Shown here: piece after piece, positions 3,852-9,550 of the stretch
Layout of the letters: each line of letters starts with the position of its first letter
How positions within the stretch are numbered: the stretch's first letter is position 1
NCBI RefSeq assembly: GCF_026810225.1
Contig: NZ_CP113865.1
Span: 2,004,001 to 2,068,000 of the forward strand
DNA from: Caldicellulosiruptor morganii
GTDB taxonomy: Bacteria > Bacillota > Thermoanaerobacteria > Caldicellulosiruptorales > Caldicellulosiruptoraceae
DNA length: 64,000 nucleotides
Direction: 5' to 3'
Notes under the pieces: model-generated
The model's input: only the letters and a program-made list of their open reading frames with translations
What the model was told of the DNA's origin: nothing
Database searches by the model: none
Program-made: the position numbers and the translations under genes

Positions 3852-3890
3852 ATATAAAAACTTAATTTTGTTTGTTAAAAGGTGATTTAT

Positions 3891-6130
<2,240 letters not shown>

Positions 6131-6132
<2 letters not shown>

Positions 6133-6180: not shown

Positions 6181-7518
6181 TTAGTATTTTGTGAGGTATG
6201 CATCAATCTCCCACTGATGTACCTTTGTCCTGTAGTCGTCCCATTCAAGCTTCTTTGCCTCAAGGTACTTTTCAAATATGTGGTCGCCGAGTGCTTCTCT
6301 CATGAGCTGGCTGTTTTCAAACTCTTTGATAGCCTCTTCCAAGCTTCCTGGCAGGCTATCAATACCGCGCTTTACTCTCTCCTCTTCATTCATTTCAAAA
6401 ATATTATCTTCGACCGGTTCTGGCGGCTCAATCTTGTTCTTTATTCCGTCAAGCCCTGCTGCCAGAACTGCTGCAAATGCAAGGTATGGATTTGCTGCCG
6501 GGTCGGGGTTTCTCAGCTCAACTCTTGTTGCCTGACCTCTTTTAGCCGGAACTCTTATAAGCGGGCTTCTGTTTCTCGGTGACCATGCAATATAAACAGG
6601 TGCCTCATAGCCCGGAACAAGCCTCTTGTAAGAGTTAACAAGCGGATTTGTAACAAGTGCAAACTCTCTTGCATGTTTCATAAGCCCACCGATAAAATAG
6701 TATGCCTCTTTTGAAAGCTGAAGCCTGTCATCTGGGTCCAAAAATGCATTTTTACCATCCAATACCCTTGCTAAAGACATATTTGTATGCATACCCGAAC
6801 CGTTAATACCAAATACTGGCTTTGGCATGAAGGTTGCATGAAGTCCGTGTCTCTGTGCAATTGTCTTTACAACAAGTTTAAATGTCACAACATTGTCAGC
6901 TGTGTAAAGCGCATCATCATATTTGAAGTCGATCTCATGCTGACCGGGTGCAACCTCGTGATGGGATGCTTCTATCTCAAATCCCATCTCCTCCAGTGTC
7001 AACACCATATCCCTTCTTGCATCCTCACCCAAATCGACAGGACCTAAGTCAAAATACCCTGCATTGTCGTGTGTTTGAAGAGTGGGATTCCCATTTTCAT
7101 CTGTTAGGAACAGGAAAAATTCAAGCTCGGGTCCCACATAGAATTTATAGCCCATTTCCTCTGCTTTTTTGAGCATCCTCTTCAAAACACCACGCGGGCA
7201 GCCAGGGAACGGTGTGCCATCCGGTAGATATACATCACAAATAAGCCTTGCAACCCTGTTTGGTGATGGTCTCCATGGAAAAATTGTAAAGGTGTTCAAA
7301 TCCGGTCTTAAGTACATGTCAGATTCCTGAATTCTGACAAATCCTTCAATTGATGAACCATCAAACATCATCTCGTTGTTAAGTACTGTCTCAAGCTGCT
7401 CAACAGGTACAGCAACGTTTTTCAATGTGCCAAAAATGTCCACAAACTGGAGTCTGATAAACTTAACGTCTTGCTCTTTGCAGATACGAATAATGTCTTC
7501 CTTAGTGTAATTTTTCAT
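6181..7518 (-). CDS. glnA: Glutamine synthetase type I
   Basis: GlnA makes glutamine from glutamate, ammonia and ATP in the cytosol. At 445 residues it is the short GSI-alpha type. Diagnostic segments are [18 protein letters not shown], the ligand-rich [32 protein letters not shown] and the ATP-site [30 protein letters not shown] region. No adenylylation segment is apparent. ATG at 7518 follows GGAGGGG with 8-nt spacing. It has its own promoter and a leader hairpin system (separate entries) suggesting control by transcription antitermination. Confidence 0.97.
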
Positions 7519-7558
7519 CAAATCTTCCCCTCCGTTTTAAGATTTTTGGTTTATAAAC

Positions 7559-7606
7559 AAAAAAGGACAAAGACGCCCTTATAACTTTCAGGACGCCTTT
7601 GTCCTT
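7559..7606 (-). promoter_or_regulatory. glnA leader: attenuator with ANTAR-type dual hexaloop hairpins
   Basis: Immediately after the predicted transcription start the minus strand can form a 5-bp hairpin closing the hexaloop AAAGGC (7590-7605). A second weaker hairpin closes the hexaloop AAGGGC (7569-7588). Both loops have A at position 1 and G at position 4, the known ANTAR-target signature. Alternatively AAGGACAAAGGCG pairs with CGTCTTTGTCCTT (one G-U) followed by six T, a rho-independent terminator that excludes both hairpins. Function is inferred. Confidence 0.7.
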
Positions 7607-7614
7607 ATGTTTCA

Positions 7615-7643
7615 ATTATACTTCATCAAATATAAAATTTCAA
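7615..7643 (-). promoter_or_regulatory. glnA promoter
   Basis: TTGAAA (7638-7643), 17-bp spacer, TATAAT (7615-7620) on the minus strand: a near-consensus sigma-A promoter. The start point would be about 7608, so the leader hairpins form as soon as RNA emerges. Confidence 0.8.
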
Positions 7644-7702: not shown

Positions 7703-9550
7703 TTATGCAAGCTGTGGCTGTGCATCCTCAAATACAAGCTTTCTGAACTCTTCGCCTGTAAGTTTCTCCTTTTCTAAAAGTGCATTTGCCACCCTGTGCA
7801 GTTTGTCAATGTTCTGCTTTAAAATCTCCTCAGCTTTTTTATAAGCCTCTTCAATTATACTCTTGATTTCCCTGTCTATCTCAGCAGCAACCTCTTCAGA
7901 GTAGTTCCTTGCAAGTGCCAAGTCTCTTCCCAAAAATACTTCTTCCTGTTCTGTCCCAAACGTCATAGGTCCAAGTTTATCTGACATACCATATTTTGTT
8001 ACCATATCCCTTGCAATTTTTGTGGCACGTTTAATATCCGAAGCTGCCCCGGTTGATACATCTTCCAGAACAAGCTTTTCTGCAACCCTTCCACCAAGAA
8101 GAGTTACAATCTCTCTCATCATGTCAGACTTTGAAGCGTAGAATTTATCCTCTTTGGGTAAATACATGGTATACCCGCCGGCATACCCCCGCGGTATGAT
8201 TGATACTTCATGAACAGGCTCAGCATCAGGCATCATGGTCCTGACAATTGCGTGACCTGCTTCATGATATGCTGTGAGCTTTTTCTCCTTTTCGGTATAC
8301 ACTCTGCTTCTCTTCTCCGGTCCCATCAAAACCTTTGCAACAGCTTCCTGTATCTCTTCCATATTGATTTGCTTTTTGCCCTTTCGTGCAGCCAGAAGTG
8401 CCGCCTCATTGAGCAAATTTTCAAGGTCAGCACCCGTAAAACCAGATGTTATCTTTGCAATTTGAGCAAGGTCAACATCCTGCCCAATCGGCTTGTTCCT
8501 CGCGTGAACCTTCAAAATCTCCTCTCTTGCCTTCGCATCAGGTACATTTACAACAATCTGTCTATCAAACCTGCCAGGTCGCAAAAGCGCCGGGTCCAGG
8601 ATGTCCGGTCTGTTTGTGGCTGCCATGACAATTATACCTTCATTTGTACCAAACCCGTCCATCTCAACAAGAAGCTGGTTTAAGGTTTGCTCTCTTTCGT
8701 CATGACCACCGCCAAGTCCTGCACCTCTGTGTCGACCAACCGCGTCTATCTCATCTATAAATACAACACAGGGTGCATTTCTCTTTGCCTGGTCAAAAAG
8801 GTCTCTAACCCTTGCAGCACCAACACCAACAAACATCTCAACAAAGTCAGAACCAGAGATGCTGAAAAATGGAACACCAGCTTCGCCCGCAACAGCCTTT
8901 GCTAAAAGTGTCTTACCTGTCCCGGGCGGTCCTACCAGCAAGATGCCCTTTGGAATTCTTGCACCAAGCTCTATATACTTTCTCGGGTTTTTGAGAAAAT
9001 CTATAACCTCTTTTAACTCTTCTTTCTCTTCATCAGCACCTGCAACATCGGCAAATGTCACCTTCTTTTTTAAGTCCTGAATGGTCTTTGCTCTTGACTT
9101 TGTAAAAGACATTATCTTGCTTCCGCCACCCTGTGTTTGCTGGAGCATGAATATCCACACAAAAATCATAAGCCCGGCAAAAATCAGCATTGGCAGAAAT
9201 GTTGATAGCCACCATGGAACCTGAGGAGGCTCTTTTGTCACAATCTCAATCTTTTTCGATTCAATCGCCGATTGTATCTGATCCAGAAATTTGTCAGGTG
9301 ATGGCACAAACACGTTATCAAACTTTGTCCCATCCTTATACTGCCCGGAGACATTGTTGTAAGTCAGCACTATCCTTGAAACCTTGCCCTCATTGATGTC
9401 ATTTATCAGCTCCGAGTAAATGACATTCCTTTTTTCACTCATATTCAAAAACTGGTTGTAGGTAAGCCCACCAGTTAAAATATCAACCAGCAATAAAATC
9501 ACAAGAGCAATTAAAATATAAATGGTTGCTGTTTTGAATAAGTTTCTCAA
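7703..9550 (-). CDS. ftsH: ATP-dependent zinc metalloprotease FtsH
   Basis: FtsH is a hexameric membrane AAA protease that degrades misfolded membrane proteins and regulators. The 615-residue protein has an N-terminal transmembrane helix (about 8-27), an extracytoplasmic domain, a second helix (about 112-137), Walker A GPPGTGKT at 207-214, Walker B FIDEIDA, the SRH region, and the zinc-protease motif HEAGH. The start is TTG after AAAGGAG. It lies directly downstream of hpt and tilS, the same tilS-hpt-ftsH order as in B. subtilis. Confidence 0.98.

Follow-up and report, generated by a model that had tools for sequence, protein, structure and literature searches.

The leader of glnA, the type I glutamine synthetase gene of Caldicellulosiruptor morganii, is very probably a transcription attenuator operated by an ANTAR protein whose gene lies elsewhere in the genome and which would act through one hexaloop. 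This reading rests on sequence, alternative folds, conservation, covariation, ANTAR co-occurrence and gene context, and from these we infer RNA binding, activation, a low-nitrogen signal and the sufficiency of one hexaloop. A preliminary description of the DNA, made from its letters, had proposed an ANTAR antitermination switch built on two hexaloops, AAAGGC and AAGGGC. The idea of the switch passed every test that could be run, the two refuting conditions set in that description among them, while its dual-hexaloop form proved wrong for this leader. Throughout, "the window" means the whole stretch of 64,000 nucleotides that was analyzed (C1:2004001-2068000), and positions are those of the window unless a contig or locus is named.

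The glnA leader pairs one hexaloop hairpin with an overlapping terminator

The glnA leader lies on the minus strand between 7643 and 7518 and spans about 50 nt from its expected start to the U-tract. The promoter (7615-7643) consists of a -35 box TTGAAA (7643-7638), a 17-nt spacer and a -10 box TATAAT (7620-7615); it matches the consensus at 11 of 12 positions and is as near perfect as had been described. Transcription is expected to begin near 7608, about 4 nt ahead of the first stem base of the hairpin AGGAC[AAAGGC]GTCCT (7590-7605, loop 7600-7595), which carries an A1/G4 hexaloop on a stem of no fewer than 3 bp, folds in isolation at -6.7 kcal/mol (z -3.3) and is the proposed ANTAR binding site and antiterminator. 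The same bases belong to an intrinsic terminator of 17 bp (7563-7606), with its 5' arm at 7606-7590, its loop at 7589-7580 and its 3' arm at 7579-7563, and with the U-tract TTTTTT at 7559-7564. The terminator fold reaches -27.7 kcal/mol (z -8.0), which none of 200 shuffles equaled. The hairpin is made of terminator 5'-arm bases, and the two structures, whose sharing of bases the preliminary description had pointed out, are mutually exclusive.

Downstream of the terminator lie the ribosome binding site GGAGGGGAAG (7524-7533) and the ATG of glnA at 7518 (glnA, 6181-7518, minus strand; TIGR00653, 597 bits). Upstream, on the same strand, ftsH ends with its stop at 7703. On the other side of glnA, and convergent with it, is an NfnAB-like pair of the NADH-dependent ferredoxin:NADP oxidoreductase type (3882-6132).

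The hexaloop is conserved and its stem covaries

An A1/G4 hexaloop with at least 5 pairs also appeared in 3.9% of shuffled glnA leaders and is not rare. Given this chance rate, one genome cannot settle the matter, and the weight of the argument rests on conservation. The hexaloop was present in all 12 genomes of the genus and in a sister genus, with stem changes that keep pairing (GTCCT to GTTCT), and in these genomes the -10 box stays near the hairpin. Across the class, all 34 ANTAR-bearing genomes with a readable leader retained an A1/G4 hexaloop, on a stem of 3 bp in G022; G035, whose contig ends inside its leader, was left out of this count. The loops found were AAAGGC, AAGGGC, AATGGT and AAGGGT, all closed by C-G. 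Thus the A1/G4 pattern, on whose persistence in related species the preliminary description had staked its reading, was conserved. Some relatives in the class also have an apical hexaloop within the loop of the terminator (gggt[ATTGGC]accc); it is not retained in G025, G017 and G034, which share a genus with those relatives, and we set it aside as chance or lineage-specific.

We compared 18 distinct hairpins, taken from class members and from a handful of genomes further off. The closing C-G, A1, A2 and G4 were invariant, loop position 3 was variable, and five of the six stem pairs had changed on both sides. The covariation score was 0.398, against 0.242 +/- 0.034 in shuffles; none of 500 shuffles scored as high, and the score halved when the partner was slid. 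Over the 12 leaders of the genus, 99.5% of terminator cells were paired. Within the genus the terminator pairs showed one-sided changes and no double ones, so strongly conserved are hairpin and terminator, and covariation is uninformative there.

These observations bear on two other explanations of the leader. The first is that a constitutive terminator ends ftsH transcripts while glnA has an independent promoter, and that the hexaloop is a by-product of an imperfect palindrome. A strong terminator does indeed lie between ftsH and glnA, on the strand of both, but the glnA promoter precedes the hairpin, and a terminator that always acted would shut off glnA as well. A by-product would also have to account for the invariance of A1, A2 and G4 around a variable third position, for amt-nif genes preceded by the same design with its own promoter, and for hairpins that cluster beside ANTAR genes (both below). 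We regard this explanation as very unlikely.

The second is that the leader is a canonical dual-hexaloop one, with AAGGGC (7575-7580) as its second loop, as had been proposed. The letters do occur, with A1 and G4 in place, and in genomes further away, G040 and G038b for example, the glnA leader does have true dual hexaloops. However, AAGGGC stands at the tip of the terminator 3' arm, where we found no stem of at least 3 pairs around it (7580-7575); the folding energy of this stretch is 0 kcal/mol, and its equivalent varies freely in the 11 congeners. Nor is there space upstream for another hairpin, since only about 4 nt separate the start from the first one. The stem search, folding and congener comparison rule out a dual hexaloop in the glnA transcript, and we give a dual leader scarcely any credence. 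Of the two proposed loops the AAAGGC hairpin is the real one, and with one hexaloop only, the leader does not conform to the EutV, NasR and AmiR motif as described.

The genome encodes one ANTAR protein, with a degenerate receiver

The preliminary description had proposed a regulator acting in trans and suggested a genome search for ANTAR-domain proteins. We found exactly one PF03861 gene in the genome (G000, C1:536940-537098; 73 bits). It lies outside the window; in this 2.5-Mb genome about 1 Mb separates it from glnA. Each of the 11 other genomes of the genus has one or two ANTAR matches, and 35 of the 37 class genomes have an ANTAR gene. In three further class families that gene shares the strand of glnA and is about 400 bp away from it. 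Two genomes of a single genus, G019 and G024, are ANTAR-less, and both have a broken hexaloop, with a seven-base loop in G019 and a disrupted stem in G024. As they belong to one genus, the loss of the hexaloop may be a single event. The remainder of their glnA leaders is still recognizable (L060, L068), as in natural knock-outs.

The ANTAR protein has 194 aa (L065:8542-9126), with a C-terminal ANTAR domain (PF03861, residues 134-186, E 8e-20), and aligns with EutV chain 6wsh_A at E 2e-11. Its N-terminal receiver scored under the Pfam cut-off. At the EutV phosphorylation site, Asp54, the genus protein has Glu and so no phospho-acceptor; all copies in the genus lack the acidic pair (LAIKNQ stands in its place) together with the conserved Thr and Lys. 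The receiver Asp is retained in two other families of the class (f3 and f4). Such a degenerate receiver suggests that the genus protein is AmiR-like and works without phospho-control. Upstream of its gene lies one for an HD-domain protein and downstream one for a peptidase C26 of the gamma-glutamyl hydrolase type; no kinase gene is adjacent.

EutV is reported to contact RNA through Arg142, Lys143, Lys147, Tyr164 and Met172, with Tyr164 stacking on G4 of the loop (PMC8934654). At these positions the alignment gives Arg, Lys, Arg, Met and Met for the genus protein. Tyr164 has its equivalent in other class families and is replaced by Met in the genus, so RNA binding by the genus protein might be altered.

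We also looked for other kinds of regulation. No Rfam family was detected across the window, and the GlnR/TnrA operator TGTNAN7TNACA, allowing at most one mismatch, was absent between 7522 and 9292, a stretch that includes the glnA promoter. (Over the whole window the same pattern, at the same stringency, occurred 62 times against 41 expected, with 0/100 shuffles.) A leader of this shape might instead be a small-molecule riboswitch or be bound by an RNA-binding protein other than ANTAR or by antisense RNA, and there is a precedent in the glnA antisense RNA and NitR antiterminator reported for Clostridium acetobutylicum (PMC4676874). We consider this highly improbable given the lack of any Rfam family in the window, a length of about 50 nt that is short for a riboswitch, and a hexaloop whose presence tracks that of ANTAR.

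The same design precedes the amt-PII-nif genes

We searched for further leaders with a covariance model, R1, built on the 18-nt hairpin. The top match of R1 was the glnA leader in 12 of 12 genomes of the genus, and this was also the best match within the window. A second hairpin family, gaaaggc[AAAGGC]gcctttc, followed by a terminator made from the same bases, stands ahead of the amt-PII-nif genes. In our genome this attenuator (G000:C1:446080-446120; L099:3081-3121) follows a TTGACA/TATAAT promoter; about 250 nt further on begins the series amtB, PII, nifH, two PII-like genes (nifI), nifD, nifK and a further nitrogenase-type subunit. The exact element occurs in 9 of the 12 genomes, ours included, and these are exactly the genomes with nifD and a nif-linked amtB; the three genomes without nif also lack the element. 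In G004 it lies about 1.7 kb from amtB. The finding that one attenuator design, with a single hexaloop, precedes both loci implies that one trans-acting ANTAR protein would co-induce them, and the shared one-hairpin design suggests a simple master switch over the nitrogen genes.

A third family, ccaaaac[AAAGGC]gttttgg with a terminator, precedes an MCP-like gene and an operon of the oxaloacetate-decarboxylase type in several congeners and was not found in our own genome. These attenuators (around 1500 in L093, L095, L096, L097, L098 and L092) have no obvious nitrogen link, and in several congeners there are two copies 1-3 kb apart. A weaker candidate in our genome is a hexaloop-like hairpin with a G.G mismatch that overlaps a terminator (L099:16638-16690; G000:C1:459637), about 70 nt ahead of the gene for a branched-chain-type substrate-binding protein; it is possibly a third member of the regulon there. 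The remaining weak R1 matches in the genome (1186469, 2470480, 11413, 270546, 258025 and 1923831) fall inside long open frames, and we take them as chance. The preliminary description had suggested a search for further leaders with the same pair of loops; further leaders exist, with amt-PII-nif foremost, and they lack the pair. Every confident member has one hexaloop and never two, and two hairpins joined by a short linker were found, between promoter and terminator, neither in the glnA leader nor in the amt-nif leader nor in the type C leaders.

Across the phylum, hexaloop hairpins cluster beside ANTAR genes

We extended the R1 search to 129 genomes of the phylum, a few of which had contributed training hairpins. 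Among the 87 matches in ANTAR-bearing genomes, 37 fell within 6 kb of an ANTAR gene, where about 0.6 would be expected, and 36 of these 37 were on the strand of that gene. We then considered 27 ANTAR-adjacent leaders for a second A1/G4 hexaloop with at least 4 pairs, at most 70 nt upstream. One was present in 13 and absent from 14; shuffled upstream sequence yields one in 9%. Some genomes, G082 and G120 (L122 and L125) among them, have two successive terminators near ANTAR genes, each with its own single hexaloop. Single and dual designs therefore exist side by side. The hexaloop was frequent in the clostridial glnA leaders of the named genomes, and among Bacillus/Paenibacillus-type glnA upstream regions 1 of 18 had a qualifying hexaloop, which lacked the AA.G loop start.

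Discussion

We propose the following course of events for the glnA leader. RNA polymerase would start about 4 nt ahead of the candidate hairpin for ANTAR binding, AGGACAAAGGCGUCCU, and only some 25-30 nt would be left to transcribe once that hairpin is complete. Without active ANTAR protein, the downstream arm would invade the hairpin, the 17-bp terminator would form and transcription would halt before glnA. Were the ANTAR protein clamped on the AAAGGC hexaloop, the terminator 5' arm would be locked away and polymerase would read through into glnA, so that one hairpin would serve for both recruitment and antitermination. Acting likewise at amt-PII-nif, one ANTAR protein could jointly induce ammonium assimilation, ammonium uptake and nitrogen fixation.

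The closest described relatives are the EutV-controlled eut leaders of Enterococcus faecalis (PMC3369931, PMC8934654). Like them, the glnA leader has an A1/G4 hexaloop on a short stem whose 3' half is part of an overlapping terminator, and, as in the EutV system, an ANTAR protein is encoded in the genome and the genes concerned are nitrogen related. Unlike them, it has one hexaloop, places both hairpin arms and not just the 3' side in the terminator stem, is 50 nt long and begins almost at the hairpin; the receiver of its regulator is degenerate, and the regulator gene has no kinase gene beside it. The EutV model calls for one hairpin to recruit the protein and another to antiterminate (PMC3369931, PMC8934654), and EutV antitermination needs both hexaloops in vivo and in vitro (PMC3369931, PMC8934654), a requirement that counts against a single-hexaloop reading. 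The 2022 EutV-RNA structure paper left the function of single hexaloops open and expected it where there is no polymerase race (PMC8934654).

Other systems share some of these features. AmiR of Pseudomonas aeruginosa, which is unphosphorylated, is also an ANTAR protein with a pseudo-receiver (PMC3369936, PMC8934654), although AmiR is under the amide-binding AmiC and the amiE leader is dual. NitR of C. acetobutylicum likewise ties an ANTAR-type antiterminator to a clostridial glutamine synthetase, but an antisense RNA is involved there (PMC4676874), whereas in C. morganii the ANTAR gene is about 1 Mb from glnA. The regulons predicted for Pelobacter and Desulfotomaculum similarly place operons for glutamine, glutamate, ammonium transport and nif under several attenuators (PMC3369931); those came from a dual-hairpin model, in contrast to the single hexaloops here. 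That ANTAR proteins control nitrogen genes, among them the operons for glutamine synthetase and nitrogenase, is already known in broad terms (PMC3369931, PMC3369936), and PMC4676874 cites an antiterminator tied to glnA in Clostridium. In the literature we found no reports of single-hexaloop ANTAR attenuators or of nif control in the genus; the glnA leader may figure among the supplementary matches of PMC3369931.

To judge from its sequence, the glnA leader appears to work like an ANTAR attenuator and to be a new single-hexaloop variant, outside the dual-hexaloop motif as defined. We lean, narrowly, toward a broader proposal: that a pseudo-receiver ANTAR protein lacking the G4-stacking tyrosine controls both glnA and amt-nif through single-hexaloop attenuators whose antiterminator hairpin lies wholly inside the terminator 5' arm, that two hexaloops are unneeded, and that this protein is the missing nif regulator of a diazotroph genus without nifA. 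The leader and its relatives would then be conserved single-hexaloop attenuators within a polymerase race, which searches requiring two hairpins would overlook or misread. Caldicellulosiruptor has no nifA, and its ammonium response needs study (PMC8209448); the amt-nif element is a concrete candidate for the control of nitrogen fixation in this genus. If the broader proposal is true, ANTAR antitermination would not require two hexaloops.
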